DNA of 14,741 bases from Balneolales bacterium. GTDB taxonomy: Bacteria; Bacteroidota; Rhodothermia; Balneolales; Natronogracilivirgulaceae. How positions within the stretch are numbered: the stretch's first letter is position 1; every line of letters starts with the position of its first letter. The translations under genes and the position numbers were made by a program. The stretch covers positions 1 to 14,741 of the forward strand of contig SLLW01000382.1 in the NCBI GenBank assembly GCA_007133875.1, given 5' to 3'. Below are positions 1-14,650 of the stretch, in pieces. The notes under the pieces are model-generated. The model was not told the origin of the DNA. It made no database searches and worked only from the letters and a program-made list of their open reading frames with translations.

Positions 1-56
1 GGTAGAGCAATGGACTGAAAATCCATGTGTCGGCGGTTCGATTCCGCCCGGTCCCA
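1..56 (+). tRNA. tRNA-Phe (GAA), 5' part cut off by the window edge
   Basis: The 3' part of a tRNA gene is visible. The anticodon stem is ATGGA/TCCAT (10-14 with 22-26) and its 7-nt loop CTGAAAA has anticodon GAA at 17-19, which reads Phe codons. The T stem GGCGG/CCGCC (32-36 with 44-48) encloses loop TTCGATT. The last acceptor strand CGGTCCC (49-55) is followed by discriminator A56. The next bases are CAA, so the CCA end is not encoded and must be added by the CCA-adding enzyme. The first acceptor strand and most of the D arm lie left of the window. Confidence 0.93.
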
Positions 57-65
57 CAAGACAGC

Positions 66-113
66 AAAGCCTTGTAAGCCAAATCGTTATGGACTTGCAA
101 GGCTTTTTTTTTG
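66..113 (+). terminator. Rho-independent terminator of the tRNA-Phe gene
   Basis: Thirteen bases at 66-78 (AAAGCCTTGTAAG) pair with 94-106 (CTTGCAAGGCTTT), with one G-U wobble. The 3' arm runs directly into a tract of nine T. It begins ten bases after the tRNA end, so it most likely ends the tRNA transcript. In the reverse direction the A/T arms give a weaker terminator-like structure that could also stop minus-strand transcription arriving from 396. Confidence 0.8.
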
Positions 114-395
114 TCAGCGCCGGTTCTACGAAAACTTCCGATTGTGAAAATTGCTCCTGTCCTGAAGCTCTAATTCTATTAATTGATCCCCGTTTCCTGC
201 CGATATTCGGAGAATAACCGCTGATGATTCTGTTAATGTTGCAGATCCTGCTGTACAGCAAAGTTCCATTCTTCAAATATCGTCTCTGTCCAACTCAGAA
301 TCTTCGTTGAACATATTTCACAGCGGCGCACAACAAGTTACATATTCGTCTTCAGCTTGTTGCAAGTTTAAACCATTTTAAAATGTAAACATTTG
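114..395. other. Non-coding gap between the tRNA terminator and the aminotransferase gene
   Basis: I see no convincing gene in these 282 bases. Near the aminotransferase stop is an AT-rich near-palindrome at 366-390 (core CATTTTAAAATG). A CAACAAG/CTTGTTG inverted repeat lies in roughly 329-361. Neither has a U-run that would make a clear terminator for the minus-strand gene ending at 396. A 47-codon minus-strand frame at 126-269 lacks any supporting similarity. Confidence 0.5.
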
Positions 396-1280
396 TCATC
401 TGATTCCCATCTTCTGTTTGAGACCGGTTTGCAGTACTTTGACGATCGTACCAGGATGACCATTGGCAATGACACGATCATTGAGTCGGGTAATCGGCTG
501 GATGTCGGTTGTGGTACCTGTCATGATTATTTCATCGACATCAGGCAGGACTTTCTCAGGCACCGGCTCTTGTTCCACCGGGATTCCGGCTTCATCTGCA
601 ATTTCAAATACTACTTCACGGGTAATCCCGGAAAGGATATGCGGCGAATCGGGATGTGTATAAAGAGTTCCATCCATGACGACAAAAACATTGTTGTTGG
701 ACCCTTCGGTAATTACACCGTTGCGTACCATGATGGCTCCGAAAGCCCCACGTTCTTTGGCCTGTTGGGCCGCCATGGTATTGGGCAGCAAATTAACGGT
801 CTTGAGGTCACATCGTGCCCACCGTAAATCGGGCACAGTTATGGCATTGGCACCGTTTTTTTGAAGATCGTAGTTCGGTTTAAAGGGAGTGGCTGAAATC
901 AGTATGGTGGGTGGAGTATCCGGTGGTGGATGGAAATGCTTCCTCGGATGTGAGGTTCCTCTCGTAATTTGCAGGTAGAGTGTGGCCTGTCCCGACTCCA
1001 AACGGTTTTCCCGAATCAAATCATCCAGGATATCCTGAATACGGATACGTTCCCGATCGGCAAGCCGGATGCCCAGATCTTGCAAGCCTTTGTCCACCCT
1101 GGCCAGATGGGCATTTCGGCGGAACAGCCTGCCCTCAACAACACGGATCACTTCATAAATACCGTCGCCGAAGAGAAACCCGCGATCATCAATGGAGACA
1201 CAGGCCTCCTCCCGGGATTTGAATCGCCCGGCAAAATATACAACGGTTGAATCACTTCTGGATGAATCGGAATCCGACAT
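396..1280 (-). CDS. Aminotransferase class IV, D-alanine aminotransferase-like
   Basis: This is a PLP-dependent fold-type IV aminotransferase of 294 residues, close to the usual length of D-amino-acid and branched-chain aminotransferases. The N-terminal part has DRGFLFGDGIYEV, typical of D-amino-acid transaminase. The region RGTSHPRKHF resembles the RGTSPRxH segment of that enzyme. The expected Schiff-base lysine is Lys160 in CDLKTVNLLPN, and the cofactor-binding glutamate is Glu192 in ITEGSNNN. The likely reaction is transfer of an amino group between D-alanine and 2-oxoglutarate, supplying D-Glu/D-Ala for the cell wall or degrading D-amino acids; a branched-chain role cannot be excluded. 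The start at 1280 is chosen because GGAG (1286-1289) lies 5 nt upstream; an ATG at 1307 would add nine residues inside the preceding gene. That gene ends only 2 nt upstream, so the two are probably cotranscribed. Confidence 0.88.
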   Translation of the reverse strand: MSDSDSSRSDSTVVYFAGRFKSREEACVSIDDRGFLFGDGIYEVIRVVEGRLFRRNAHLARVDKGLQDLGIRLADRERIRIQDILDDLIRENRLESGQATLYLQITRGTSHPRKHFHPPPDTPPTILISATPFKPNYDLQKNGANAITVPDLRWARCDLKTVNLLPNTMAAQQAKERGAFGAIMVRNGVITEGSNNNVFVVMDGTLYTHPDSPHILSGITREVVFEIADEAGIPVEQEPVPEKVLPDVDEIIMTGTTTDIQPITRLNDRVIANGHPGTIVKVLQTGLKQKMGIR

Positions 1281-1282
1281 AA

Positions 1283-2335
1283 TTACTCCGAAAAGCGAAC
1301 AGTGCATTTCTTTTCATTACTCTGAAAAGCCAGTTCAATGATCCGGATTGTGTTGATCATCTGATCCGGGGTGACGGCAAGCTGCTCCCGGCCCCTGATT
1401 GCATTCACGATATTCTGGTAGTACCCGATATAATTACCGGCTATCGATTCAACTTGTCCGACCACATGCAGCCCGTTGATATCTGTATTCATCGTCCCCC
1501 AGCGGTCTTCGGGCTCGATTCCCCATCCGGGCTCATCGGGTGTCTTTCCTGCAATAAGAGCATCTTCCTGTGGATCCATGCCGTATTTAACAAAAGTGCC
1601 ATTCATCCCCTGGATGAGAAATCGCGGAGTTTGTGTTCGTACCAGCATTCCTCCCTTTATCCGTACTTTCAGGCGGTCATAGTGCAGGATCACGTCAAAA
1701 TAATCATCCGTTTCGGCATGGTCCCGTTGCAAACGGATATCCGCTGTGACCATTTCGGGTGTGCCGAATAAAACCAGAATTTGATCAATGAGATGCGGAC
1801 CAAGATCGAAGAAAACCCCGCTACCTTCGCCCGGTTTTTCCCGCCAGGCATCCGGCCGTTTGTGTTTTCGGAACCGGTCGTAAAAGGATTCGAATTCGAC
1901 GATTCTTCCCAGTTGATCTCCATTAACCAGCTGCCGGACCGTTTGAAAATCTCCATCCCATCGTCGATTTTGAAAGGCATTAATGATCCGGTTTTTTTCT
2001 GCCGCAAGATCGATCAATTCCCTTGCCTGTGCGGAGGTTGTGGTGAATGGCTTGTCGACCACGACATGTTTCCCGGCCAGTAAACATTTTTTTGCCAGTT
2101 CGTAATGAGTGTCGTTGGGTGTGGTGATAACGACCAGCGAGATGTCATCATCTTCCAGCAGGGTATCTGTATCCCGGACTACCTCGACCCAGGGATAGCG
2201 TTTTCTTGACTCCTCCCGGTGGCGTTCCACCACTTTGGTCAGTTTCAGTTCCGGTACAGAGGTGATGATCGGTCCGTGATAAACTCGCGATGCTTTGCCG
2301 AACGATACAAGTCCGGTGTTGATTGGTTCTGCCAT
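1283..2335 (-). CDS. Gfo/Idh/MocA oxidoreductase, IolW/YvaA (scyllo-inositol 2-dehydrogenase)-like
   Basis: This is a 350-residue NAD(P)-dependent oxidoreductase with an N-terminal Rossmann domain (about 1-125) and a C-terminal alpha/beta substrate domain. The family's lysine motif is DKPF (94-97, Lys95), in place of the common EKP. FDLGPHLID at 176-184 gives the catalytic-type Asp177 and His181. The blocks RRWDGDF (124-130) and FESFYDRFR (148-156) match the YvaA/IolW/YdgJ branch, whose Bacillus member reduces or oxidises scyllo-inositol with NADP(H). The glycine motif is altered: GLVSFGKAS (8-16) has Ser11 and Ser16 where GxGxxG is usual. Substrate is therefore inferred only; another sugar or polyol is possible. 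The gene heads a two-gene unit with the aminotransferase. No clear SD site precedes the ATG. Confidence 0.85.
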   Translation of the reverse strand: MAEPINTGLVSFGKASRVYHGPIITSVPELKLTKVVERHREESRKRYPWVEVVRDTDTLLEDDDISLVVITTPNDTHYELAKKCLLAGKHVVVDKPFTTTSAQARELIDLAAEKNRIINAFQNRRWDGDFQTVRQLVNGDQLGRIVEFESFYDRFRKHKRPDAWREKPGEGSGVFFDLGPHLIDQILVLFGTPEMVTADIRLQRDHAETDDYFDVILHYDRLKVRIKGGMLVRTQTPRFLIQGMNGTFVKYGMDPQEDALIAGKTPDEPGWGIEPEDRWGTMNTDINGLHVVGQVESIAGNYIGYYQNIVNAIRGREQLAVTPDQMINTIRIIELAFQSNEKKCTVRFSE

Positions 2336-2352
2336 TGTATTTAATATTTACT

Positions 2353-2381
2353 ATGATAAAATGACTATGAAGGCTTCCCAA
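2353..2381 (-). promoter_or_regulatory. Candidate sigma-70-like promoter for the oxidoreductase-aminotransferase unit
   Basis: On the minus strand TTGGGA (2376-2381) and TATCAT (2353-2358) are 17 nt apart. The -10 element lies 17 nt before the ATG at 2335, which would give a short leader of about ten bases. This is a pattern match only. Confidence 0.35.
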
Positions 2382-2391
2382 AGGATATATA

Positions 2392-2430
2392 AAACCTTAC
2401 ACATCATTACTTAACAGACTTGCAAGGTTT
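2392..2430 (-). terminator. Probable terminator of the CDGSH gene
   Basis: On the minus strand AAACCTTGCA (2421-2430) pairs with TGTAAGGTTT (2392-2401), ten pairs including one wobble around a 19-nt loop, followed by TTATAT. It starts about 8 nt after the stop of the CDGSH gene. The long loop and short, broken T-run make it a moderate candidate. Confidence 0.45.
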
Positions 2431-2437
2431 GCTGTTT

Positions 2438-2680
2438 TTACGTATTGATCTCCTTGTGCGTCCCGTCACAAAACGGTGCGGTTCGCGTGTGTTTGCATCC
2501 GCACCATGCGATTTTTTTGGGTTTATCAATTTTTTCCACAACCGGTTTAAATGAGGTCGCTTTGTGTGAACCGTCACAGAACGGTTGATTATCCGAATAT
2601 CCACAGGCACACCAAGCATAGGTTCCGGGCTCGACATCCATTAAAAAGGGTTGTTTGCTGGCAATTTTTGGCTTCTCCAT
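2438..2680 (-). CDS. Tandem CDGSH-type iron-sulfur protein
   Basis: This 80-residue protein has two CDGSH domains in tandem. The first has Cys24, Cys26, Cys35 and His39 (CACGYSDNQPFCDGSH). The second has Cys60, Cys62, Cys71 and His75 (CGCKHTRTAPFCDGTH). Each set is the three-Cys/one-His ligand pattern that binds a [2Fe-2S] cluster in mitoNEET-family proteins, and two motifs on one chain resembles the CISD3 (Miner2) layout. No signal peptide or membrane anchor is visible, so it is probably cytosolic. The role is not shown by the sequence; electron or cluster transfer is known for the family. It lies 77 nt downstream of marC on the same strand and is followed by a probable terminator. No SD is evident before its ATG. 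Confidence 0.92.
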   Translation of the reverse strand: MEKPKIASKQPFLMDVEPGTYAWCACGYSDNQPFCDGSHKATSFKPVVEKIDKPKKIAWCGCKHTRTAPFCDGTHKEINT

Positions 2681-2757
2681 ATAGCAGTTTTGTTTTATGA
2701 TAGATGATGTACATTATGAAAACAGTCCTTACAGGTAACAAGTTCTTGACTTATAAA

Positions 2758-3378
2758 TCAGGTCCCGATAATCGGCCGTACCCCGTTGATAATAAACTGA
2801 ACACCGATGGTAAGCGCAATGAAACCCATCATACGGGTGAGGGCCGTCATACCGGTGCGGCCCAACATGCGGGTAAAATTCGGTGCGACCACCAACAGCA
2901 GGAATGATGTCAACGCAACCAGTACAATAGCTATGGCAATTGTCAGATAATCAACCATGGTATCCGACTGTGAAGCCATCCCCAGTACCAATGCAATCGA
3001 ACCCGGGCCGGCCAGCATGGGCATGGCCAGCGGACTGAATGAGATATCGGGTTTCCGGAAAGCCTCTGAATGATCGGCGGCATTGAGTTTGCGTCCCTGG
3101 GAATCCGGATCAAGCAGGGAGTACGCCATTTTCATAATCAATAATCCACCGGCAATACGGATTCCCTCCAGACTGATTCCGAAAAAACTGATGATATAAT
3201 TCCCACCAATAAGAAACACGCCGAGTATCAGTACCATATAAATACTCGCTTTAAATGCCTGCTGCCGTCGCTGCTTGTCGCTGTCCCCGTCGGTCATTGC
3301 GAGGAAAATCGGCATTGCCGCAAACGGATTGGCTATGGAAAGCAGAGAGGTAAAACTGGCCAGTAAAAAAGCGATCAT
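2758..3378 (-). CDS. MarC family integral membrane protein
   Basis: This protein of about 206 residues has roughly six hydrophobic segments. The N-terminal segment has SIANPFAAMPIFLAMT, and the middle has the MPMLAGPGSIALVLG block typical of MarC (UPF0056) proteins. The C-terminal part has a TRMMGFIALTIGVQFIINGV helix. Despite the name, the family has no proven role in multidrug resistance and its substrate is unknown. I prefer the ATG at 3378 because AGGA lies 6 nt before it; an ATG at 3384 directly abuts that AGGA and would add two residues. The gene is divergent from the GAF gene, with about 117 bp between the starts. Confidence 0.9.
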   Translation of the reverse strand: MIAFLLASFTSLLSIANPFAAMPIFLAMTDGDSDKQRRQQAFKASIYMVLILGVFLIGGNYIISFFGISLEGIRIAGGLLIMKMAYSLLDPDSQGRKLNAADHSEAFRKPDISFSPLAMPMLAGPGSIALVLGMASQSDTMVDYLTIAIAIVLVALTSFLLLVVAPNFTRMLGRTGMTALTRMMGFIALTIGVQFIINGVRPIIGT

Positions 3379-3420
3379 GATCATTCCTGAAATATTAGCT
3401 GGAAAAACGGAGTGAAATTA

Positions 3421-3448
3421 TTGAATATGTAATGCTGTTTGATATAAA
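3421..3448 (+). promoter_or_regulatory. Candidate promoter for the GAF-domain gene
   Basis: TTGAAT (3421-3426) and TATAAA (3443-3448) are 16 nt apart and would give a leader of about 40 nt to the GTG at 3496. An alternative Bacteroidota-like pair, TTTG (3438-3441) and TATTTTG (3458-3464), overlaps it but departs from the TAnnTTTG consensus. Pattern match only. Confidence 0.33.
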
Positions 3449-3495
3449 TGATCTGAATATTTTGATCTGCAAATTTATGTATATTTCCAGCCAGA

Positions 3496-3996
3496 GTGAA
3501 CTCCAAACGTACTGTTTATTGTGACATGACACAAAAAGAAATTGCTTGGGATCAATTGTTGAATCAGACCCGGACCCTCATACAGGATGCGGCTGACCGG
3601 GAAGAGGCAATGCAGCATATTTGTGCGCTGCTTCATCGGGAAGTCCCCCATTACGATTGGGTGGGGTTTTATATGGTGGATCCGCTTGCGGAAAATCAGC
3701 TTGTACTTGGGCCGTATGTCGGAGAACCCACCGAACATATCCGCATTGCTTTTGGAGAGGGCATTTGCGGCCAGGCTGCCGATTCCCGCAAGACATTCCT
3801 GGTTCCGGATGTCAGTAAAGAGTCCAACTACCTTGCCTGCAGTCCGTCTGTTCAGTCCGAGATTGTTGTTCCTGTTTTAAAAGGGGATGAACTGATCGGA
3901 GAGATCGATATCGACTCAGACACACGGGGGGCGATGGGTGAACAAGACAGGAATCTACTGGAATCAATTGCTAAGGAAGTAGCAGAAATGTTCTGA
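3496..3996 (+). CDS. GAF-domain protein, free methionine-(R)-sulfoxide reductase-like
   Basis: The protein is one GAF domain of 166 residues, cytosolic in appearance, of the YebR/MsrC (fRMsr) type. Family-typical blocks are HYDWVGFYM (52-60), FGEGICGQAA (86-95), LVPDV (102-106), SEIVVPV (121-127) and IGEIDIDSD (134-142). fRMsr reduces free methionine-R-sulfoxide with up to three cysteines. Here Cys91 and Cys115 correspond to E. coli Cys94 and the catalytic Cys118, but the position of Cys84 is His81. The enzyme may therefore use Cys91 to resolve the disulfide, or may be a non-catalytic relative. The start is a GTG at 3496; an ATG at 3526 would remove ten poorly conserved residues, and neither has a good SD. 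Its stop lies 5 nt from the converging bactofilin stop. Confidence 0.85.
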   Translation: MNSKRTVYCDMTQKEIAWDQLLNQTRTLIQDAADREEAMQHICALLHREVPHYDWVGFYMVDPLAENQLVLGPYVGEPTEHIRIAFGEGICGQAADSRKTFLVPDVSKESNYLACSPSVQSEIVVPVLKGDELIGEIDIDSDTRGAMGEQDRNLLESIAKEVAEMF

Positions 3997-4001
3997 ACTG
4001 C

Positions 4002-4607
4002 TCACCAAAACCGGTCCACCCACTTTGTATCATCGGGCAGATCTCCAACTTTTTTACTTTTCGAGGCCGGTGTACTGTTTTCATCCGAAGATTTTGCTGT
4101 TGTATTAGCGGGAGTTTTTCCGTTTTCGGAGCGCTTCACCTCCCGATTGGAATTGCGCTGATCTCCGGCATCAAGCGGCAGTGCCCCTTTCACCACATTA
4201 TCATTTTTCCGCGCAGCAACCGCCGCAATACGGGAGTCTTTTCCCCACTCGATTTTTCTTCGTTCAATAGCTTCCTTTCCGATAACCATCTCCATGTTGC
4301 ATACCGCACCCTCTTCGATGTTGATCTCACCGGCAGCCACTTTCCCGTCAACTCTTCCTTCTTTGCTGATGGTGACCGTTCCGGCAGAAATCACATTCCC
4401 GGTAACTTTCCCCTGTACCTGAACAGCAGCGGCACGGATATACCCTTCTACAATGCCGGTTTCGGTTACAACCACCTTCCCGGCACTCTCGATATTCATC
4501 TTTACCGTACCAGAAATTTTCAGATGTGACGGGACAGTAATTAACCCATCAACGACTACAGAATCTTTACTAAAAAGACTCACGTACTCCAGGTTTGAAT
4601 TCGACAT
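4002..4607 (-). CDS. Bactofilin family polymer-forming protein
   Basis: This is a 201-residue bactofilin (DUF583/CcmA type). Residues about 14-112 form the beta-helix core, seen as repeating hydrophobic-Gly patterns such as VVVDGLITV, LKISGTVK, GIVEGYIRA, VQGKVTGNV and EGRVDGKV. Bactofilins self-assemble without nucleotide into filaments that scaffold cell-wall enzymes or membrane sites. After the core comes a charged linker (about 113-135). The long polar tail (about 136-190), rich in Ser, Thr, Lys and Asn, looks disordered and ends in an aromatic peptide, DDTKWVDRFW. The gene lies 112 nt downstream of the actin-like gene on the same strand, suggesting shared expression. No clear SD precedes the ATG. 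The family call is firm; the cellular role is not. Confidence 0.92.
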   Translation of the reverse strand: MSNSNLEYVSLFSKDSVVVDGLITVPSHLKISGTVKMNIESAGKVVVTETGIVEGYIRAAAVQVQGKVTGNVISAGTVTISKEGRVDGKVAAGEINIEEGAVCNMEMVIGKEAIERRKIEWGKDSRIAAVAARKNDNVVKGALPLDAGDQRNSNREVKRSENGKTPANTTAKSSDENSTPASKSKKVGDLPDDTKWVDRFW

Positions 4608-4719
4608 AATGAATTTGTTCGATTACTGGATACAAGAATACTCTTCAGAAACCGAAATGATGATACCATTTAAACGGATTCGTCATGAAGTAACAGCCTG
4701 AGTACGAAAATATTGCACG
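4608..4719. other. Spacer between actin-like gene and bactofilin gene
   Basis: These 112 nt separate two same-strand genes. I see no strong hairpin terminator after the actin-like stop, so read-through into the bactofilin gene is plausible. On the minus strand TATTCTTG, about 25-35 nt before the bactofilin ATG, is one mismatch from the Bacteroidota -7 element TAnnTTTG, a weak promoter candidate. Confidence 0.3.
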
Positions 4720-5745
4720 TTAATTCTGTTCTTCAAAGACACTTACGGTCGTATGGGCGTTACCGATATCCAGGCCGACAGCCGCTTCTGTCCCCCCTCC
4801 GGCAATATTTCTGGACCGGATACAGAAACCCCGGCTTGCAACAGTAGTCGGGTTATCAGCAACTTCAACATTGGCAAAACTTCCAAATTCCTCGGTGAAA
4901 TTGTTGACAATTTCCGGGTACAGTGCACCGCCACCCATCAGGATAATGGTATTAGCCCTGTTGAAATCTTCATCCTCCCAGGTGTTCCGCAACAGAGGTG
5001 TTACCACATCTTTATAATAGTGGGTCAACGCCCGTTTACGAATCTCTGCAAGATCAATACGCTTTCTGTTAACCGTGATATTCCCTCTTTGGAAGGCCGC
5101 ATCAAATTGATGTTCGGTCCGCAGGCCTACATAATAATTTTGCATCAGCTCTTTCATAGCCCAGTCGACGGCATAACGCAAGCCGGGTGCGGTGCCTTCG
5201 GTTCGCTGAATGATGCCTCCGTCTGTACTTAAGCCGATTTCAAGCGTCCCGTAACCGAGGCTGACCATAAAAAAGTTACCGGTTCGCTGGGTCCCGCCAC
5301 TCCGCATGGCAATAATACCGCCGATCAGCTCGGGAATGATTTCCACCCGGTTAACCGAGAACTGAAGCGACTGCTGATCCCGTCCGCCAAACGGCCGGGA
5401 GTCACACACCACAGAATCCAGTCCGGAAATATACTCATTCGCCTGATTCTTATTGATGTTGATGGTGGAAAAAGGAAACCCGGTTGTGATTACCATCGGC
5501 TCCTTCACATAGTTGGATGCGGTCAGAATACCCGCTTTCAAAAGGAGTTTATAGTCAATCTCCTCAGGAGAACTATTAATTGCCTTGTGTGGATTGCGTC
5601 CCTCAGAAAGGGCCAGGTTGCCAATAATATAATCTTCTTCACCTTCACGAATCTTCAGGCCGTTCAGTTGATCTTTGGCCACATTGACCAAATCGTTATT
5701 ATGTCCCTCAATGACACTTGGGAATGAGATGGATCGAATATTCAT
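4720..5745 (-). CDS. ParM-like actin homologue, apparently circularly permuted
   Basis: This 341-residue protein has actin-fold motifs in an unusual order. The N-terminus begins with SISFPSVIEG, a segment that normally follows the first phosphate loop by about 20 residues. Next come YIIGNLAL and the VITTGFPFS block (about 85-93, comparable to ParM IVCTLPLT). The phosphate-2 region, MVSLGYGTLEIG, lies at about 160-171. The adenosine motif ILMGGGALYP is at 268-277 and the closing helix is NPTTVASRGFCI. The phosphate-1 motif then appears at the very end as VGLDIGNAHTTVSVF (323-337). Joining the C-terminus to the N-terminus reconstitutes a canonical ParM-type start, so the gene looks circularly permuted. 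The usual phosphate-2 Asp is Ser162. An in-frame TAA just before a TTG at 5757 excludes a hidden N-terminal extension. I chose the ATG at 5745; the TTG would add four residues. It lies between uvrA and a bactofilin gene. Filament formation is inferred. Confidence 0.82.
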   Translation of the reverse strand: MNIRSISFPSVIEGHNNDLVNVAKDQLNGLKIREGEEDYIIGNLALSEGRNPHKAINSSPEEIDYKLLLKAGILTASNYVKEPMVITTGFPFSTININKNQANEYISGLDSVVCDSRPFGGRDQQSLQFSVNRVEIIPELIGGIIAMRSGGTQRTGNFFMVSLGYGTLEIGLSTDGGIIQRTEGTAPGLRYAVDWAMKELMQNYYVGLRTEHQFDAAFQRGNITVNRKRIDLAEIRKRALTHYYKDVVTPLLRNTWEDEDFNRANTIILMGGGALYPEIVNNFTEEFGSFANVEVADNPTTVASRGFCIRSRNIAGGGTEAAVGLDIGNAHTTVSVFEEQN

Positions 5746-5759
5746 ACCAACCTGCAATT

Positions 5760-5810
5760 ACGTATACGTTTCATTTCAGTGGGTGTGACCATTATTACAA
5801 TTACCACACC
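5760..5810. promoter_or_regulatory. Palindrome and spaced inverted repeat upstream of the actin-like gene
   Basis: A perfect 10-bp palindrome ACGTATACGT occupies 5760-5769, ending 14 nt before the ATG at 5745. Beyond it, GGTGTG (5782-5787) and CACACC (5805-5810) form an inverted repeat with a 17-nt spacer. These could be operator half-sites or RNA structure in the leader. No regulator is identified. Confidence 0.28.
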
Positions 5811-5930
5811 GGTTACTCTCTTTTTATCGGCCGGTTTTACAATTCTATAAGTATTTTAACCCAGGCACACAGTTTTCTTTGATTTTCTTAATCTTAAAAA
5901 CAGCGTTGGCAGCTGACAATCTTGATTTTC

Positions 5931-8735
5931 TTACAACAGTTGCTTGAGAAAAGCCCCGGTCAGGCTTTCGGAATTGCTGGCAATGTCTTCCGGAGTCCCT
6001 TCGCACACAATGGCTCCGCCTCCGAACCCACCTTCCGGTCCCACATCTATCACCCAGTCCGCCGATTTGATTACATCCAGGTTGTGCTCGATAATAATCA
6101 CCGAATGCCCCTGGTCAATAAGCCGGTTGAACGAATCAAGCAATCTGGAGATATCCTCAAAATGAAGTCCGGTGGTCGGTTCATCAAAAAAGTACAACAC
6201 ATGCTCTTTTTCGGATCGCGACAGGTAGCGCGCGAGTTTTACACGCTGTGCCTCCCCTCCGGATAGCGTGGTCCCGCTCTGTCCCAGTCGTAAATAACCC
6301 AGCCCGACATCTTCCAGCACCTGAAGCCGGTTGACAATCTGCTTCTCGTCGACAAAAAATTCCAGAGCTTCCGAAACGGACATTTCCAGCACATCGTGGA
6401 TATTTTTCCCGCGATATTTTACCCCAAGTACATCTTTCCGGTAACGGGTTCCGCCACAAGCCTCGCAAGGCAGCTCAATGTCGGCCAGAAACTGCATCTC
6501 GATTGTCTGCACCCCCTCTCCCTGACAGGTTTCACACCGTCCGCCGGGAACATTAAAGGAGAAGTGTCCGGCCGTGTACCCCATGATTTTGGCCTCCCTG
6601 GTTTTGGAGAAGACCTCCCGGATTCCGTCAAATGATTTGGTATAGGTGGCCGGATTCGACCGGCTCGACCGTCCGATTGGAGCCTGGTCAACCATTTCCG
6701 CCGCATCGATATGATGTAACCCCTTCAGTGTCCGATACCGGCCCACCCTGTCATTGTACACGCCCAGCTCTTTCATAATACCGGCGTAGAGCGTCCGATG
6801 AATCAGTGTCGATTTCCCCGATCCGCTGACCCCGGTGACACAAACCAGTTTCCCCAGAGGAAATGTTACATTCACGCTCTTCAGATTGTGCTCCACCGCA
6901 CCCTCGAGAACCAGCTCTTTTCCGCTTCCCTTCCGTCTTTTCTCCGGTACTGGAATCACCTTTTCGCCGCTGAGATACTTTCCGGTGAGGGTTTTTGATT
7001 TCAACAGATCCTGATAGCTCCCGGAGAAACAGACCTCTCCGCCATGGATTCCGGCAAACGGGCCAATATCCAGCACATTGTCGGCTGCCCTGATCATTTC
7101 CGGATCATGTTCAACGACCAGTACCGTATTTCCGATATCACGAAGTGATTTCAAAATGCTGATCAGCCGGTCGTTGTCGCGGGGATGAAGGCCGATGGTC
7201 GGTTCGTCCAACACATAGAGGCTCCCGATGAGCGAGCTGCCGAGTGCGTTCGCCAGGTTGATACGCTGCGCTTCACCACCACTGAGTGTGTTGGTTAGGC
7301 GGTTCAGGGTGATATAGTGGAGGCCGACCTCATCCAGATACCGGAGCCTTTTCCGAATCTCATAGAGAATCTGTCCGCCAACATCCATTTCATAATCACT
7401 GAGCTGCAGCTTGTCAAAGAACTCCCGGGCGTAACCGATGGTCATTTCCGAAACCTGGCCGATGTGCAGTTCGCCAATTTTTACGTAGAGTGCATCTTTG
7501 CGGACCCGGTAACCGTCACACTCCGGACACCTGGAGTACCCCCGGTACCGTGAATAGAAAACACGCATGTGCACTTTATAAAACTCGCTCTTTACCTGTT
7601 CGAAAACGGTATGGATGCCCGGATACTCATCTTTCCCGTACCAGAGGATGTGCTTGACCTCTTTGGACAGGGCGTGATAGGGGTCATCGATCGGCAGGCT
7701 GTACCGGGCTGCTACTTTGATCAGCAGCTTATGATTCTTGTTGAATTTCGGGGAGTTAAACGGTGCGATAGCGCCGCCACGGATCGAAAGCAGCGGATCG
7801 GGCACCACTTTATCCTCATCAATACCCTGTACACGTCCGAATCCTTCACAACTGCGGCAGGCTCCGAAGGGGTTATTAAACGAGAACATTTGCGGAGTCG
7901 GCTCCGTAAAATCGATACCGTCACGCTCAAACCGTTCGCTGAAGAGCAGCTCTTCGCCTTTGTGAATTTTGATGTAGCAGCGGCCCCGACCCTCCAGAAA
8001 AGCGGCCTCAATCGAGTCCACCAGGCGGCTTCGAAAGTCATCATCCTCTTTTTTTACGGCAAGCCGGTCCACCACCACCCGTACATCCGCGGGTTTGAGT
8101 TTGCGTAAATTCACTTCATCCCGGCTGAGGTCGACCATCGTTTCATCCGGCAGCAAAATCCGATTGAACCCTTTCTGCTGAAACACCGCCAGCTCCTCGC
8201 GCATCTTTTTGTTTTTCTCCATGCTGCCCCCAAAGAGCACATAAAAACGCTGCTTCTCGCCGAAACGGTCCAGAATCGTTGCCGCCACCGACTGCGGAGT
8301 CTCCTTTTTCACGACCTCGCCGGACACCGGAGAGATCGTTCGTCCGACACGCGCAAACAGCAGACGCATATAATCGTATATCTCGGTGGTGGTTCCAACC
8401 GTTGACCGCGGATTGTATGTCGTGTTTTTCTGCTGGATCGCCATGGCCGGAGAGATGCCCTGCATGAAATCGACATCCGGCTTATCCATCCGCTCCAGAA
8501 ACTGACGCGCGTAACTTGACAGGCTCTCCACATATCGGCGCTGGCCCTCGGCGTAAATGGTATCAAAAGCGAGGCTGGATTTTCCGGAACCACTCACACC
8601 GGTCACAACCGTCATCCTGTTACGGGGGATAGTGACATCCACATTCTTCAGGTTGTGCACCCGGGCACCCTTTATAATTATGGGGGACAGGGATTTGTCG
8701 TTTTTCAAAGTCGTCTGGTTTTTGAAGTCTGGCAT
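5931..8735 (-). CDS. uvrA: Excinuclease ABC subunit UvrA
   Basis: UvrA is the damage-recognition ATPase of nucleotide excision repair; as a dimer it loads UvrB on damaged DNA. The protein is 934 residues from the ATG at 8735, or 939 from a GTG at 8750; neither has a clear SD. Positions here use the 939 numbering. It contains two ABC ATPase modules: Walker A GVSGSGKSS (51-59) with signature LSGGEAQR (489-496) and VLDEP, then GVSGSGKST (640-648) with LSGGEAQR (829-836) and FFDEP. The C-terminal zinc finger is complete (Cys739, 742, 762, 765). Only one CxxC of the first zinc finger remains (Cys298, 301), and a further CPEC is at 408-411. Loss of the other CxxC appears in Bacteroidota-type UvrA as I remember it. 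The gene follows mrpE by 74 nt on the same strand. Confidence 0.98.
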   Translation of the reverse strand: MPDFKNQTTLKNDKSLSPIIIKGARVHNLKNVDVTIPRNRMTVVTGVSGSGKSSLAFDTIYAEGQRRYVESLSSYARQFLERMDKPDVDFMQGISPAMAIQQKNTTYNPRSTVGTTTEIYDYMRLLFARVGRTISPVSGEVVKKETPQSVAATILDRFGEKQRFYVLFGGSMEKNKKMREELAVFQQKGFNRILLPDETMVDLSRDEVNLRKLKPADVRVVVDRLAVKKEDDDFRSRLVDSIEAAFLEGRGRCYIKIHKGEELLFSERFERDGIDFTEPTPQMFSFNNPFGACRSCEGFGRVQGIDEDKVVPDPLLSIRGGAIAPFNSPKFNKNHKLLIKVAARYSLPIDDPYHALSKEVKHILWYGKDEYPGIHTVFEQVKSEFYKVHMRVFYSRYRGYSRCPECDGYRVRKDALYVKIGELHIGQVSEMTIGYAREFFDKLQLSDYEMDVGGQILYEIRKRLRYLDEVGLHYITLNRLTNTLSGGEAQRINLANALGSSLIGSLYVLDEPTIGLHPRDNDRLISILKSLRDIGNTVLVVEHDPEMIRAADNVLDIGPFAGIHGGEVCFSGSYQDLLKSKTLTGKYLSGEKVIPVPEKRRKGSGKELVLEGAVEHNLKSVNVTFPLGKLVCVTGVSGSGKSTLIHRTLYAGIMKELGVYNDRVGRYRTLKGLHHIDAAEMVDQAPIGRSSRSNPATYTKSFDGIREVFSKTREAKIMGYTAGHFSFNVPGGRCETCQGEGVQTIEMQFLADIELPCEACGGTRYRKDVLGVKYRGKNIHDVLEMSVSEALEFFVDEKQIVNRLQVLEDVGLGYLRLGQSGTTLSGGEAQRVKLARYLSRSEKEHVLYFFDEPTTGLHFEDISRLLDSFNRLIDQGHSVIIIEHNLDVIKSADWVIDVGPEGGFGGGAIVCEGTPEDIASNSESLTGAFLKQLL

Positions 8736-8773
8736 ACCGGTAAGATACACGGTACCGTGCCACTGTTACAACG

Positions 8774-8798
8774 ACCGGAATCACACTTCGGTTCCGGT
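8774..8798 (-). other. Hairpin between mrpE and uvrA
   Basis: ACCGGAA and TTCCGGT (8774-8780 with 8792-8798) form a 7-bp stem with an 11-nt loop, 12 nt after the mrpE stop. There is no T-run, so it is not a standard terminator; it could act as a 3' mRNA stabiliser or a weak attenuator ahead of uvrA. Confidence 0.3.
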
Positions 8799-8809
8799 AA
8801 TCATAGGCA

Positions 8810-9286
8810 TTATTGCGTCACTTCCAGAATTCGCCGTTCCATTCCGTTCTTGATGGATGCACGGACCTGATCCACCCCCTCGTCAATGTACATAGCATGA
8901 ATAAACAACTCTTTGCGGTCATCGGACACCTCCAGGCTGAGGGTTCCGGGCGTCAGGGAGATCATATTGGCAAGAACGGTAATCTCTAAATCGGTTTTAG
9001 CATCCAGTGGAATATCAACGACTCCCGATTTCATCCTGAAACTCGGTTTCATGACATCAATGGCTACCCGGATACTGGAAACGAACAGTTCCTTCAGAAA
9101 AAAGGTCGTCAGGGTGAACGCCTTCCAGACACGCCGGGTATAACCGGTCTTGTCAATGGCCGGACCCACAACCAGCAGCACCAGATAACCGAGAACAAGT
9201 CCGATCAGCAAGTTGCCAAACGAGAATGTCGCTGTTACAGCCGTCCAAATAAGCGCCAATAGAATATTAAAAAGGAAAAGTTTCAT
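8810..9286 (-). CDS. mrpE: Mrp Na+/H+ antiporter subunit E
   Basis: This 158-residue protein of the MnhE/PhaE family is a small subunit of the Mrp cation/proton antiporter in the cytoplasmic membrane. The first ~50 residues form membrane helices (FNILLALIWTAV, IGLVLGYLVLLVV). The cytosolic part has the family blocks KELFVSSIRVAIDV (65-78), LANMISLTPGTLSLEV (about 109-124) and HAMYID. Length matches the family. It is the last mrp gene here, 178 nt after mrpD, whereas mrpE usually sits between mrpD and mrpF. MrpE is needed for full antiport in Bacillus and for stability of the complex in other systems. Only a weak AGG precedes the ATG. Confidence 0.94.
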   Translation of the reverse strand: MKLFLFNILLALIWTAVTATFSFGNLLIGLVLGYLVLLVVGPAIDKTGYTRRVWKAFTLTTFFLKELFVSSIRVAIDVMKPSFRMKSGVVDIPLDAKTDLEITVLANMISLTPGTLSLEVSDDRKELFIHAMYIDEGVDQVRASIKNGMERRILEVTQ

Positions 9287-9464
9287 CTGCCTGGATTTAC
9301 ATTTATTTGTCAGATAGCGTATCCATGTGTAACAAGGTGCGTCCGGGTCTCCGCATTTTCGGGAATGGTTGTTTCATGCGTTTGAACATTGTTTTCTGTT
9401 ATCACGTGGCGTACAGTATCGCTGATTTCTTTGATATAATGGGTTAATTCGCAGTACGGAAACG
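9287..9464. other. Long spacer between mrpD and mrpE
   Basis: These 178 nt break an otherwise compact operon. They hold two overlapping minus-strand short frames: one of 28 codons starting with ATG (9303-9389) and one running open from near the mrpD stop but with only an internal GTG as start. Neither has a convincing SD or similarity. I see no terminator, so transcription may continue into mrpE. Confidence 0.4.
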
Positions 9465-10976
9465 TTACTGAGGCCCCATAACGGCTTCAATATAAACGGA
9501 TGGATCAAGCAGCTGCTCGGCGGCGGTCAGACAGATTTCAAGCAACGGTTGGGCAAAAAGGCCAACCAGGATAATCAATCCGGCCACAATCATCACCGGT
9601 ACCACCATAATGTAGAGATTCCCGGCACCAAAAAGCGGCATTTTCCCAAAATGATCGGGAACGCCTTTCTCCGGAACAGCCGCCCAGAACGCAGTCATCC
9701 AGATCTTGGTCATCGAGAAGAGGGTAAGTAGTCCAACCAGTATTGCCACCGCTGTAATTACGTATTCCCCGAGGGAGAGACCCGCTTTGACCAGCGTCAA
9801 TTTGGCCCAGAATCCCGAAAGCGGCGGGAATCCGGCCAGTGCAAATGCGGATATCAGAAACAGAGCCGCAAGGAACGGATAGTGCCGGTACAACCCACCC
9901 ATCTGTTTCAACTCAAACGTACCCATCAGCCGTTGTGCAATACCGCTGATCAGGAACAGATTGGTTTTGGCCAGGATATTGTGAAGCACATAGAAGATCG
10001 CTCCCATCAGGCCGAGCGCGGTGTTGAATGCCAGGCCCATGATCATATAACCTATCTGACTCACAATATGGAAGGAGAGGATCTTCCGGAACTCATAGTG
10101 AGAGGCCGCACCGAGGACACCGGTCACCATGGTAAATCCGGCGACCCAGATCAGGATCGTATGGGTATAGCCGACATCCTGCGTAAATAACAGGGTAAAA
10201 ACCCGTATCAAAGCGTAAACCCCGACTTTTGTGAGCAGCCCTCCGAAAATTGCCGAAATGGCCACCGGGGGGGTGTGATATGATGCCGGAAGCCAGAAGA
10301 AGAGCGGGAAGATCGCTGCCTTGATCCCAAATGAGACCAGGAAAATCATCGCTACGGTGGTTACCAGTCCGACATTCTCCACCTCCGGAAGCCGCAGGGC
10401 CAGATCTGCCATATTGAGCGTACCGGTCATGCCATAGAGCAAAGCGACACCGAACAAGAAAATTAGCGAAGAGAACAAGTTGATGATCACATACTTCAAA
10501 GCACCCTGAAGTTGATTCCGGCTGTTGCCGAGGGCCAGCAGAATGAAACTGGCGATGAGCATCACCTCGAACCAGACATAGAGGTTAAAAATATCACCGG
10601 TCAGGAAGCTGCCATTGACCCCCATCAGCAAAATGTGCAGCAGCGGATAGTAACCGAACTGCTCGCGCTGTTTATCGATGTCATAAATGGAATAAATGGC
10701 GATGATCAGCCCCATCACAGCCGAAATACCAAGCATCAGCATGCTCAACATATCGGCGACAAGGGTGATGCCAAACGGTGCTTCCCAGGTACCGAGCTGC
10801 AAAACCTGGATTCCATCGCCGTAGACATCACGGAACAACATCGCAACCGAAACCAGCAGAACGGCCATACCGGCCACACCAATCCATCGCTGCATCGCGG
10901 ATGATTTCCGGAACAGCAGCGCCAGGGTGGCGGTGATCAGGGGTATAACTACAGGCAGTACAAGTAAACCGTTCAT
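9465..10976 (-). CDS. mrpD: Mrp Na+/H+ antiporter subunit D
   Basis: This 503-residue polytopic protein belongs to the MrpD/NuoN-NuoM-like family of proton-translocating subunits, usual length for MrpD. It should have about 14 transmembrane helices. The key membrane glutamate is Glu137 in YVWFEVMLIASF, and channel lysines are Lys219 in SFGIKAAIFPLFFWLP and Lys250 in GGLLTKVGVYALIR. These residues are conserved for ion translocation in Mrp and complex I. The start ATG overlaps the mrpC stop in an ATGA (10973-10976), indicating translational coupling. Together with MrpA it forms the transport core of the complex. Confidence 0.96.
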   Translation of the reverse strand: MNGLLVLPVVIPLITATLALLFRKSSAMQRWIGVAGMAVLLVSVAMLFRDVYGDGIQVLQLGTWEAPFGITLVADMLSMLMLGISAVMGLIIAIYSIYDIDKQREQFGYYPLLHILLMGVNGSFLTGDIFNLYVWFEVMLIASFILLALGNSRNQLQGALKYVIINLFSSLIFLFGVALLYGMTGTLNMADLALRLPEVENVGLVTTVAMIFLVSFGIKAAIFPLFFWLPASYHTPPVAISAIFGGLLTKVGVYALIRVFTLLFTQDVGYTHTILIWVAGFTMVTGVLGAASHYEFRKILSFHIVSQIGYMIMGLAFNTALGLMGAIFYVLHNILAKTNLFLISGIAQRLMGTFELKQMGGLYRHYPFLAALFLISAFALAGFPPLSGFWAKLTLVKAGLSLGEYVITAVAILVGLLTLFSMTKIWMTAFWAAVPEKGVPDHFGKMPLFGAGNLYIMVVPVMIVAGLIILVGLFAQPLLEICLTAAEQLLDPSVYIEAVMGPQ

Positions 10977-11374
10977 GAATCTCTGTTTTCGTTGTTCTCG
11001 GTGTGGGTTACGATTGCCGACGAAGTATCCTCGGGATCCTCAAGCAACTCATCCTGATTGACGGTGCCCAGCTCTTTATAACTGCGATAGGCCAGAGCCA
11101 GCGCAAATGCCAGCAAACCGAAACCGATCACAATCGCTGTGAGAATCAGCGCCTGGGGAAGCGGATTGGCAAACGGAGCTTCGGGCATAACGCTGCCGGC
11201 CGCAATGAGCGGAGGGTTTTCGGTGGATATGCGTCCGAGCGAGAAAAGCGCCAGGTTCACGGAGTTGCTAATCAGGATGATCCCGATTATGGTCAGGATC
11301 AGACTTTGTCTGAGTAACATATAGATGCCGGTGGCAAATATGGCTCCTGCTAAAATGGGAAGTATTGTATCCAT
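10973..11374 (-). CDS. mrpC: Mrp Na+/H+ antiporter subunit C
   Basis: This 133-residue NuoK-like subunit has three predicted membrane helices: ILPILAGAIFATGIYMLL near the N-terminus, IIGIILISNSVNLALFSLGR around residues 29-48, and ALILTAIVIGFGLLAFALALAY around 75-96. The NSVNL segment between helices 1 and 2 is family-typical. The C-terminal 35 residues are acidic and polar, and probably cytosolic. The start is 4 nt after the mrpB stop, with no SD, so reinitiation from mrpB is likely. The stop overlaps the mrpD start. Confidence 0.95.
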   Translation of the reverse strand: MDTILPILAGAIFATGIYMLLRQSLILTIIGIILISNSVNLALFSLGRISTENPPLIAAGSVMPEAPFANPLPQALILTAIVIGFGLLAFALALAYRSYKELGTVNQDELLEDPEDTSSAIVTHTENNENRDS

Positions 11375-11378
11375 ATCA

Positions 11379-11801
11379 TTAAAAAGTCAGCGGTTCCTCT
11401 TCCAGTGAAAAAATCACGGCAACAATGAATCCGACCACGCACAGATAGACACCGATATCAAAGATAAGCGGGGTGCTGAGCTTCACTTCGGATCCGCCCA
11501 ACTCCAGAAAGAGCCACTTCCCGGTCAGGAACGGATCGCCCATAAACATGGGGATCAGGCCGCTGATCACCAGGCTGGCCAGTCCGATCGCAATCAGTGT
11601 GATGGGATGGATTCGGAGTATTTTGCGGGTCGCCGCGGTTCCGAAAGCGATGGCATACAGCGTAAATGCTCCGGCCCCTACCAACCCGCCAATGAATCCG
11701 CCGCCCGGCTCATCATGGCCGCGGAAGAACAGGAATAGCGAAAAAAGGACCAGAACCCCGATCATCATTCGGGTGGTGGTATGTAAAATCAGACTTTGCA
11801 T
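11379..11801 (-). CDS. mrpB: Mrp Na+/H+ antiporter subunit B
   Basis: This 140-residue MnhB-domain membrane protein has about four helices. The signature RGHDEPGGGFIGGL (28-41) lies after the first helix; helices follow at GAGAFTLYAIAFG, LIAIGLASLVISGLIPM and IGVYLCVVGFIVAVIF. It is a full-length separate subunit, not fused to MrpA. Its ATG shares one base with the mrpA stop (TAATG at 11799-11803), a strong coupling arrangement. No independent SD is apparent. Confidence 0.95.
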   Translation of the reverse strand: MQSLILHTTTRMMIGVLVLFSLFLFFRGHDEPGGGFIGGLVGAGAFTLYAIAFGTAATRKILRIHPITLIAIGLASLVISGLIPMFMGDPFLTGKWLFLELGGSEVKLSTPLIFDIGVYLCVVGFIVAVIFSLEEEPLTF

Positions 11802-14128
11802 TATGATTTATTTTCTTTTGAAGATCCGGGGCGAGTCATTTTTATCAACGCATAGACGGCAAGTCCTGCAATAGCAACCACAACGACCTCGCCCATGGTA
11901 TCCAATGCCCGGAAGTCAACCAGAATGACATTCACAATGTTTCTTCCATGGGCCAGCGGATAACTTGCCTCAGCATAGTATTCGGAGATAAAGGCGTCGA
12001 ATGGCACTGCGGTAACCGCCAGAATAAGCAGCGTCATCATCAGTCCCGCCGAAATGGCAATAACACCGTCTCTGGTGCGTGATACACCGCTTCGAACCTC
12101 CTTGATCTTGGGTACATGAATCAGTACCAGTACAACCAGAATTACGGTAAGCGTCTCAACAAGGACCTGGGTCATGGCCAAATCAGCCGCACCGTGCATG
12201 AGATAGATCAGCGAGAGTCCGTATCCGATGATACCTGCAGCGACGATGATGGTGAGCCGCGAATTTCCGAATGCCAGCATAATGCCCAGCGAGCCGACTA
12301 TGGTGATCGAAAGCGCCCAATCATATACATGAACATTGGAAAAATCCGGATTCCAGATGATACCCGATTGCGTCAGAAATGTATAACCAATAGCTACGAG
12401 CGCGGTGACCATGATCGTAACCAGATAGTTGGACATCAGCCCGTTCTGCAGGATCCTGGTCTGCCATCCCGCCAGGCCAAGCATTCCGTTGACAAGCCCA
12501 TCATATACATTGACCGGAAACCGTGCAAAGACCATCTGATATCCTTTCATGGGGGCTGATTCGCGCAGGCCGTCCCAGATCCGGTACGTGAGCAGGCCAC
12601 CTGCCAGAGTGAGGAGACTCAACATTAGCGGCATGTTAAAACCGTGCCACAGAGAGAGATAAAAATCCAGCGGCTCACCCCATACACTGCCGGCTACCGG
12701 CACAATAAGACTTTTATCAACCAGAAATGGCAGCACACCAAAAACCACACTCAGGACTGCCAGAATAATCGGGCCGATCCACATGGACGGCGGCGTTTCG
12801 TGCGCTTTTTTGGGGGTTTCCACCTGTTTCCCGAAAAATGGCCTGATAACCACAATGGCAGATGCGGCTACAATAGCGATATTGGCAACCACTGCCAGTG
12901 TGATAAACAGTACCGGAAGCAGGGTGGCCTCTAAAGCCGCCTCGTAGACGATTTCTTTTGCAATAAATCCGAAGAGTGGCGGTATTCCCGCCATGGAGAG
13001 TGCCGCAAGGGCGGCGGCTACGGCCGATATCGGCATAAGCTTCCTGAGTCCGCCCAGCTTGAGAACATCCCGGGTGCCGGCTTCGTGATCGATTCCGCCG
13101 GCCACCATAAAGAGCGCGCCTTTGTACATGGCGTGAGACAGAATGTATACCGCCAGGCCCTGCATTGCCAGCTCGGTACCGAGACCGATCAGCATCATCA
13201 TTGTCCCCAGTGCCATGACCGTGGAGTAAGCCAGAATCTGCTTGAGGTCGGTGAAACTGAGTGACAGCCATGCACTGATCAAAAGTGTCACTACGCCAAA
13301 ACCGCCGACCAGTATCATCCAGGTGTCTGTAAATCCGAGCACCGGATGCAACCTGGCGAGCAGGTACACACCGGCCTTGACCATTGTCGCAGAGTGCAGA
13401 TAGGCACTAACCGGAGTAGGCGCCGCCATCGCACCGGGTAACCAGAAGTGGAATGGGAACTGGGCGGATTTGGTGAATGCCCCGCCGAGTACCAAAAGCA
13501 GGATGGCCAGGTAGTGGGGATGCTCCCGAATAATATCTCCTTCATTCAGAAGCGCAGAGACCTCCCATTGGCCGGAGGCAAAGCCCATGAGAACCATCCC
13601 CCCAAGCAGTGCCAGTCCGCCGATTCCGGTGACCAGTAATGCCTGAAGTGCCGCTTTCCGGGACGCCTCCTGCTCATGGTTAAATCCAATAAGCAGGTAG
13701 GAAGTGAAACTGGTCAGCTCCCAGAAAACAAAGATACTGATGAGGTTGTCCGCCAGAACCACGCCCAGCATGGAACCCATGAAGAGCAGGATGGCCAGAT
13801 AGAACCGGGGCAGATATTCATTGCCGCTTAAGTATCCGGCGCCATAAAGCACGATGAATGTTCCGATCCCGGTGATGATAAGGCCGAACATGAGGCTGAG
13901 TCCGTCGAGGTAAAATGCGAGATTAACCTCGAAAAACTCCATGGATACCCATGTCGTTGATTGCGTGATGGTTCCGCCGGCCGCAATTTCCGGCATAAAG
14001 GAGAGCAGGTACAAGAAACTACCCAGGGGAAGCAGCGCCAGAATCCAACCGGTTTTCTCACGAAACAACTTGAAAATCCAGGGGGCCAGTAGTGCAGTGA
14101 CAAAAATGAGGCCGATTACGATCAGCAT
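11801..14128 (-). CDS. mrpA: Mrp Na+/H+ antiporter subunit A
   Basis: This 775-residue protein is the large Mrp subunit, homologous to NuoL of complex I, with roughly 20 membrane helices. The NuoL-like part carries Glu137 in VFWELTSFTSYLLIGF, Lys220 in GGAFTKSAQFPFHFWLP and Lys251 in HSATMVKAGVYLLAR. The C-terminal extension contains the DUF4040-like block GAADLAMTQVLVETLTVILV and then NVILVDFRALDTMGEVVVVA in the last ~45 residues, which in MrpA forms the MbhE-like end. Length is normal, so it is not an MrpA-MrpB fusion. It exchanges cytosolic Na+ (or K+/Ca2+) for external H+ as part of the heptamer. A strong SD (AGGAGGAGG) lies directly upstream, and a short leader frame overlaps its start. 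Confidence 0.97.
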   Translation of the reverse strand: MLIVIGLIFVTALLAPWIFKLFREKTGWILALLPLGSFLYLLSFMPEIAAGGTITQSTTWVSMEFFEVNLAFYLDGLSLMFGLIITGIGTFIVLYGAGYLSGNEYLPRFYLAILLFMGSMLGVVLADNLISIFVFWELTSFTSYLLIGFNHEQEASRKAALQALLVTGIGGLALLGGMVLMGFASGQWEVSALLNEGDIIREHPHYLAILLLVLGGAFTKSAQFPFHFWLPGAMAAPTPVSAYLHSATMVKAGVYLLARLHPVLGFTDTWMILVGGFGVVTLLISAWLSLSFTDLKQILAYSTVMALGTMMMLIGLGTELAMQGLAVYILSHAMYKGALFMVAGGIDHEAGTRDVLKLGGLRKLMPISAVAAALAALSMAGIPPLFGFIAKEIVYEAALEATLLPVLFITLAVVANIAIVAASAIVVIRPFFGKQVETPKKAHETPPSMWIGPIILAVLSVVFGVLPFLVDKSLIVPVAGSVWGEPLDFYLSLWHGFNMPLMLSLLTLAGGLLTYRIWDGLRESAPMKGYQMVFARFPVNVYDGLVNGMLGLAGWQTRILQNGLMSNYLVTIMVTALVAIGYTFLTQSGIIWNPDFSNVHVYDWALSITIVGSLGIMLAFGNSRLTIIVAAGIIGYGLSLIYLMHGAADLAMTQVLVETLTVILVVLVLIHVPKIKEVRSGVSRTRDGVIAISAGLMMTLLILAVTAVPFDAFISEYYAEASYPLAHGRNIVNVILVDFRALDTMGEVVVVAIAGLAVYALIKMTRPGSSKENKS

Positions 14129-14163
14129 GACCTCCTCCTGCCGTTATCGGCCGGGCTGACCAT
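14122..14163 (-). CDS. Possible 13-residue leader peptide ahead of mrpA
   Basis: A short frame reads MVSPADNGRRRSC and its TGA (14122-14124) overlaps the mrpA start region (ATG at 14126-14128) in the arrangement ATGCTGA. It is preceded by GGGGAGGTGA (14171-14180), a near-perfect match to the anti-SD sequence, though about 10 nt from the ATG. Ribosomes ending here could hand over to mrpA. It contains three consecutive AGG arginine codons, which double as the mrpA SD. It may instead be chance; no homologue is known to me. Confidence 0.3.
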   Translation of the reverse strand: MVSPADNGRRRSC

Positions 14164-14275
14164 GCTGCGGTCACCTCCCCTATTTTTGAATAACAGGCTC
14201 ATAAAAATCTGAGTTAAAACGATGGTTGATAACTTGTTTTAAATGGTACATTCACACCGGATGCCCCGGTCAGGA
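14164..14275. other. Spacer between mrpG and mrpA
   Basis: This is the non-coding part of the mrpG-mrpA interval. It contains an AT-rich block (about 14181-14245) and, just after the mrpG stop, a weak ACCGG/CCGGT hairpin (14256-14270). On the minus strand TTTAAC and TGTTAT 17 nt apart are a poor promoter match. I see no terminator and no recognisable riboswitch. Confidence 0.35.
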
Positions 14276-14650
14276 TCAGTCATTATCCGGAATAGAACCA
14301 GAGGGTTTTACGCCTTTGCCGGACTTGTCATAATACGTTTTCAGTTCATCGACAACGGTTCCTTTCCAGAAAGGTATACCAGACCTGTAGGCAGCGCGGC
14401 CAATCGTGTGTGCCGCAACCGGAGCAGTCATCAGGATGAAGATGATGGTTGCAATGGCACGAGATACAATTCCGATTTCTGCGTACGTGAAAGCGACCGC
14501 AAGCAGGATGAGTCCGGCGCCAAGGGTGCCGGCCTTGGTTGATGCGTGCATGCGCATGAGAATATCGGGCAGGCGCAGGATACCAACAGCGGCTACCAAT
14601 ACAAAAAAGCCGCCGGTAATAAGCAGAATTCCGGCAATGATCTCAAGCAT
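14276..14650 (-). CDS. mrpG: Mrp Na+/H+ antiporter subunit G
   Basis: This 124-residue MnhG/PhaG-type subunit has three membrane helices: the N-terminal IIAGILLITGGFFVLVAAVGIL, then AGTLGAGLILLAVAF, then IATIIFILMTAPVAAHTIG. The motifs RLPDILMRMHASTKA and MTAPVAAHTIGRAAYRSG are typical of the family. The polar C-terminal tail (about 95-124) is cytosolic in appearance. The start at 14650 has GGAGG about 7 nt upstream and overlaps the mrpF stop; a longer reading from 14725 would run through mrpF in another frame and is rejected. It lies 147 nt before mrpA. Confidence 0.96.
   Translation of the reverse strand: MLEIIAGILLITGGFFVLVAAVGILRLPDILMRMHASTKAGTLGAGLILLAVAFTYAEIGIVSRAIATIIFILMTAPVAAHTIGRAAYRSGIPFWKGTVVDELKTYYDKSGKGVKPSGSIPDND

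Follow-up and report, generated by a model that had tools for sequence, protein, structure and literature searches.

Can an actin keep its fold when the hairpin that opens its nucleotide site is encoded at the wrong end of the chain? The question is raised by a gene on contig SLLW01000382.1 of a Balneolales bacterium (assembly GCA_007133875.1), whose positions 1 to 14,741 were analysed and are called the window below. On the minus strand, an open reading frame (ORF) with its ATG at 5745 and the end of its stop codon at 4720 encodes an actin-like protein of 341 residues. An earlier note, drawn from the sequence of the window, had proposed that this protein is a natural circular permutant, with FPSV at residues 8-11 and the phosphate-1 motif GLDIGNAHTT at residues 324-333, eight residues from the end; both positions are confirmed on the ORF. 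As developed below, it is now well supported that the protein belongs to a family that is permuted throughout. The relevant features are the following:

4720..5745, minus strand: circularly permuted actin-like protein, 341 residues (ORF, ALP_N match, AlphaFold model)
5704..5745, minus strand: residues 1-14, MNIRSISFPSVIEG, N-terminal here, the strand that canonical actins have after phosphate-1
5233..5262, minus strand: phosphate-2 motif SLGYGTLEIG, residues 162-171, aligned to BiP, with Ser162 facing the Hsp70 aspartate
4924..4935, minus strand: adenosine motif GGGA, residues 271-274, its three glycines invariant in alignments A1 and A2
4747..4776, minus strand: phosphate-1 hairpin GLDIGNAHTT, residues 324-333, at the C-terminus

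A permuted order shared by a family

Upstream of the ATG the frame is open for four codons only (345 residues for the whole open frame), so that there is no room for a second, N-terminal copy of phosphate-1, in agreement with the earlier note. The protein matches the ALP_N profile (PF17989) with 44.3 bits, for a curated cut-off of 26.3; positions 16-146 of the profile are aligned and positions 1-15 are left unmatched. When the last block of the window protein is moved to the front, the alignment begins at position 1 instead of 16 and the score rises by 7.0 bits. No NCBIfam model matched the window protein. In the AlphaFold (AF2) model, the chain is confidently predicted to adopt an actin fold (predicted local distance difference test, pLDDT, 92.7; predicted template modelling score, pTM, 0.91), in which the final residues would form two strands; this model, like alignment A1, carries one additional N-terminal glycine, so that a model residue is the protein residue plus one. 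The nearest folds in the PDB are ParM-type actins (pCBH ParM, 6ixw; Dh-cParM1, 8x1i) and Ta0583 (2fsj), the best matches being of the ParM types, as judged with a sequential aligner that left the C-terminal hairpin out of the alignment. At the sequence level, phmmer with the whole window sequence returned only weak Hsp70 matches among PDB chains, and with the profile of alignment A1 the first-ranked chains were BiP, at E 0.0005, and Dh-cParM1, at E 0.002.

The order of the motifs was then followed in 214 homologues, which are the different proteins listed from 231, 531 and 89 overlapping matches, at most 120 being taken from each search. Among these listed matches, none carries the phosphate-1 motif within its first 120 residues, and homologues with a normal order had been named in the earlier note as a possible contradiction. 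G-x-D-x-G-N was already found in the C-terminal part of all 120 homologues listed in the first protein search; in the complete set it stands past residue 250 in 210 proteins and near the end of two fragments (residues 240 and 202), which makes 212 of 214. In the remaining two (P0213 and P0214), the corresponding C-terminal site reads GLDVDD, a degenerate form of the motif. A few homologues have long extensions; in P0115 and P0116 about 170 residues follow the motif. The permuted order is thus kept across many genera. It might be argued that this order is an artefact of assembly or a frameshift, since the assembly of the window genome is fragmented (442 contigs). However, the same order is found in the 212 homologues, some of which lie on contigs longer than 4 Mb (P0078, P0089); the probability of an artefact is therefore practically nil, and we regard this reading as already refuted by the homologous sequences.

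Two observations do not fit as smoothly and count against the permutation. Rotation of P0023 did not bring the start of its ALP_N match to position 1. P0078 has no ALP_N match, whether rotated or not. Mean-field covariation on 251 sequences (effective number 94) placed first the pair 72-325, which connects helix 1 with the C-terminal strand, in a noisy list from an alignment too shallow for the purpose. Across 395 genomes of the phylum, PF17989 gave 12 matches in 11 genomes, each beginning at profile position 15 at least and located where a member of the permuted family lies. ALP_N proteins of normal order were not found in these 395 genomes, which is weak evidence, because the six-frame PF17989 search missed even the window gene in its own genome.

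Taken together, the permuted order and the actin fold are supported, and the docking of the hairpin in the ATP site may be inferred from them. The chain would have been cut between strands 2 and 3, in subdomain IA. The old C-terminus would be joined by a short linker to the phosphate-1 hairpin, which would come last and complete the ATP site. A permutant that extends to a whole family indicates that chain ends can be relocated in evolution without loss of the actin fold. Moreover, the permutation moves the chain ends to a different surface, a point of consequence for the way in which filaments acquire partners.

The bactofilin neighbour and its last residue

What would the partner of such an actin be? 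In the window, the gene that comes next on the actin strand, after a gap of 112 bp, encodes a bactofilin:

4002..4607, minus strand: bactofilin, 201 residues, PF04519 with 68.7 bits (cut-off 27.9)
4005..4019, minus strand: VDRFW, the C-terminus of the bactofilin, with a final Trp after a long low-complexity tail

This arrangement recurs. A bactofilin gene is found downstream of the actin, on the same strand, in 40 of 49 loci (21 of 28 in a first set, 19 of 21 distinct loci in a second). These counts omit L135, whose contig has the same length as that of L011 and was considered identical to it, as well as two fragments, L037 (53 residues, G365) and an N-terminal piece from G482 lying at the edge of contig C298. 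The bactofilin gene is the immediate neighbour in 37 of the 40 loci, two of them less neat than the others (a gap of 1 kb in L047, an ORF of 127 codons in between in L067), and the gap is -1 bp in five loci. One gene intervenes in the last three (L059-L061); it encodes a TPR protein in L059 and a member of the same cluster in L060 and L061. Since the 25 genomes tested have one to four bactofilin matches each, such adjacency is not expected by chance, and an actin-bactofilin partnership can be inferred from gene order.

The C-terminal tails of the bactofilins encoded next to the actin are otherwise dissimilar, and the last residue is Trp or Phe in 35 of 37 proteins. It was so in all 18 of the first set (15 Trp, 3 Phe) and in 17 of 19 (16 Trp, 1 Phe) of the second set, which was independent of the noticing of this feature. 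Bactofilins encoded elsewhere in the same genomes have such an end in 2 of 26 cases (1/23 and 1/3), giving p of about 6e-13 in a Fisher test that ignores relatedness. As a background, among 191 other ORFs of at least 200 residues in the loci of the first set, five end with Trp and ten with Phe.

Several possibilities may be envisaged for this residue. The tail that it ends would be a candidate docking peptide. Alternatively, it could be a membrane anchor, or an inherited trait of a bactofilin subfamily without connection to the actin, a reading that we consider possible but on the doubtful side. Ending and ancestry are indeed partly confounded: in a FastTree phylogeny of the bactofilin domain, for which support values are not shown, one clade devoid of Trp/Phe ends takes in 20 of the 26 non-adjacent proteins, so that descent accounts for part of the contrast. 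On the other hand, three non-adjacent bactofilins (L109, L148, L149) group with the adjacent ones in this same tree and yet lack the Trp/Phe end, the tail sequences differ while the last residue is kept, and, in one clade, a Trp-ended tail is borne by the actin itself. A further non-adjacent protein, L147, ends with Trp and groups with the type of bactofilin found in the window.

The actin clade just mentioned contains 13 proteins (P0182, P0183, P0185, P0186, P0188-P0190 and P0192-P0197), which have about 90 extra C-terminal residues and ends resembling RLGKFLKTGMW. P0032 and P0120 are Trp-ended actins without this tail. For comparison, the C-terminal tail of BacP is described in PMC12448750 as carrying the binding site of PadC; according to the same paper, most other bactofilin tails are far shorter and little conserved.

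Two bacterial genomes (G183 and G226) encode two permuted actins each (L065 and L066; L067 and L068), all four with a Trp-ended bactofilin downstream.

Nucleotide site and possible mode of action

Phosphate-1 Asp326, Glu139 and the glycines of the adenosine site are invariant in alignment A1. At the phosphate-2 position of the Hsp70 aspartate, a serine is found in 211 of 213 homologues and an asparagine in two, one fragment of the 214 not covering the position. The phosphate-2 aspartate helps to position the metal and a water molecule. Because a serine replaces it and the putative catalytic Glu139 is kept, the sequences suggest slow hydrolysis and long-lived filaments. P0213 and P0214 should be considered apart: with GLDVDD as phosphate-1 and NLGQGACE as phosphate-2, they look like actins that lost their nucleotide motif and could be nucleotide-free pseudo-actins.

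From these elements, the mechanism that we consider probable is that of a circularly permuted actin of the ParM/Alp type, which would bind ATP, form filaments and work with a chromosomal bactofilin by means of a C-terminal docking peptide. Judging from its fold and conserved motifs, the permuted actin would bind ATP and very likely polymerise, and the change of Asp to Ser would slow down hydrolysis to give long-lived filaments. The downstream gene would supply its partner, a bactofilin scaffold that does not depend on nucleotide and whose flexible, Trp- or Phe-ended tail would offer the actin many copies of a docking peptide. The tail of ParR binds ParM, and it is by analogy with this tail that docking by the bactofilin tail is proposed. 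The static bactofilin polymer would then gather the dynamic actin filaments or end them. The whole would constitute a chromosomal cytoskeleton devoted to envelope growth, cell shape or positioning rather than to plasmid partition. Where a gene for an M23 peptidase adjoins that of the actin (L059-L061, with Pfam data for L059 only), the system could plausibly take part in the growth of the wall. It is tempting, if more tentative, to imagine a composite cytoskeleton in which Trp-ended bactofilin tails capture or nucleate permuted-actin filaments, thereby placing a static scaffold under the control of ATP, one clade having put the docking tail on the C-terminus that the permutation had created in the actin. 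The usual adjacency of the two genes suggests that permuted actin and bactofilin form a two-part bacterial cytoskeleton not previously described. The recurrent Trp/Phe-ended neighbour offers a concrete and cheap way to test whether these two cytoskeletal families, so far studied separately, are linked.

Some data weigh against such a partnership. Nine of the 49 loci have no bactofilin nearby, all of them from two genera (g26 and g33). They are L048, L049 and L054-L058 in the first set (1.45 kb being covered downstream in L055) and L136 and L137 in the second; in the seven genomes of such loci that were checked, a bactofilin is present elsewhere. Two next-gene bactofilins (L133, which ends with WI, and L146) and the three behind an intervening gene (L059-L061) lack the Trp/Phe end. 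Finally, the docking of the tail of P0186 is not confidently predicted, with pLDDT of 60-65 for a short end helix and 42-53 for the linker. In one of the loci without a bactofilin neighbour (L056), a pentapeptide-repeat protein of 1239 residues is encoded directly upstream of the permuted actin, at 2308-6027 of that locus.

Two other functions have to be weighed. In the first, the protein would be a permuted nucleotide-binding regulator of actin fold that does not polymerise and binds bactofilin as a switch. The serine in 211 of 213 homologues and the persistence of P0213 and P0214 with degenerate motifs would agree with this view, which nevertheless appears unlikely to us: the closest folds are those of filament formers, and Asp326, Glu139 and the adenosine glycines are invariant in alignment A1. 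In the second, a ParM-like filament would segregate chromosomal DNA through an adaptor that has escaped notice. The structural proximity to ParM is in its favour, as are the database labels, members being stored as "ParM/StbA family protein" at NCBI and called ParM at JGI as well. However, a tblastn search of 72,556 plasmid records at E 1e-3 found no member of the family, phage records gave no match, and 80 pattern matches in viral contigs left none confirmed. A 221-residue piece of ParM had no plasmid match either. Furthermore, the recurrent neighbour is a bactofilin, and no partition adaptor, ParR included, was matched among the 30 neighbours scanned with Pfam, a scan that did not extend to the other neighbours or to parC repeats. 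DNA segregation appears very unlikely to us.

Known relatives and distribution

In comparison with described systems, the family stands as a topologically permuted branch of ParM/Alp, to which a new partnership with bactofilin is probably attached. It resembles ParM/Alp (PF17989; 6ixw, 8x1i) by its ALP_N score above the curated cut-off and by its best structural matches; it differs by the C-terminal phosphate-1, the phosphate-2 serine in place of aspartate, the lack of plasmid matches and the bactofilin neighbour. The archaeal Ta0583 (2fsj) is aligned from chain residue 18 onward, which implies a normal, N-terminal hairpin. With CorM (9rmi), the comparison bears only on the filament structure, where the aligned stretch starts at chain residue 60. 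MreB shares the actin fold, but the window protein scores 14.7 bits with PF06723, below the cut-off of 27, whereas a separate MreB_Mbl match in the same genome reaches 461 bits over profile positions 2-323.

FcmB, recently described in filamentous cyanobacteria, is another chromosomal actin that derives from ParM. It plays a part in morphology, and its gene is directly followed by a second one; the follower is however fcmC, and neither 'permut' nor 'bactofilin' occurs in the text of PMC12645912. Operons of bactofilin and M23 peptidase are known, in which the bactofilin scaffold has an adjacent partner gene (PMC10945521, consulted in part). Similarly, the gene that immediately precedes the actin in L059-L061 belongs to a single cluster and is identified as M23 by Pfam in L059, but here the frequent neighbour is an actin. 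These three loci run from the M23 peptidase gene through those of the permuted actin and the TPR protein to the bactofilin gene, with ATP synthase genes beyond it (Pfam data for L059 only).

The earlier note knew of no actin family built in this way. Keyword searches of open-access text, whether for a permuted form of actin, MreB or ParM or for bactofilin together with an actin homologue or ParM, found nothing on point, a scope that leaves subscription papers and preprints outside. The words circular permutation, ParM and bactofilin do occur in a paper of 2020 (PMC7203096), but not in its first 300,000 of 769,434 characters, which is the part covered. Circular permutation within fold groups is treated in general terms in a classification of kinases (PMC1079889, seen in part).

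As for its distribution, the family is widespread yet patchy, as seen in genome searches within the phylum, the class and orders. Within the phylum, 24 genomes out of 395 have a permuted actin (one hit being the 53-residue fragment); the figures are 31 of 244 for the class, 19 of 128 for the order and 11 of 341 for the order to which G349 belongs. The homologues named among the matches listed come from Balneolales, Rhodothermales, Roseivirga, Cyclobacterium, Fodinibius, Lunatimonas, Odoribacter, a metagenome-assembled genome of Sphingobacteriaceae and similar sources, which we take to be Bacteroidota in the broad GTDB sense.

Elsewhere in the window, an apparent run of genes for Mrp-type antiporter subunits, recognised by eye only, lies at 8810-14725, upstream of uvrA and on the strand of that gene.
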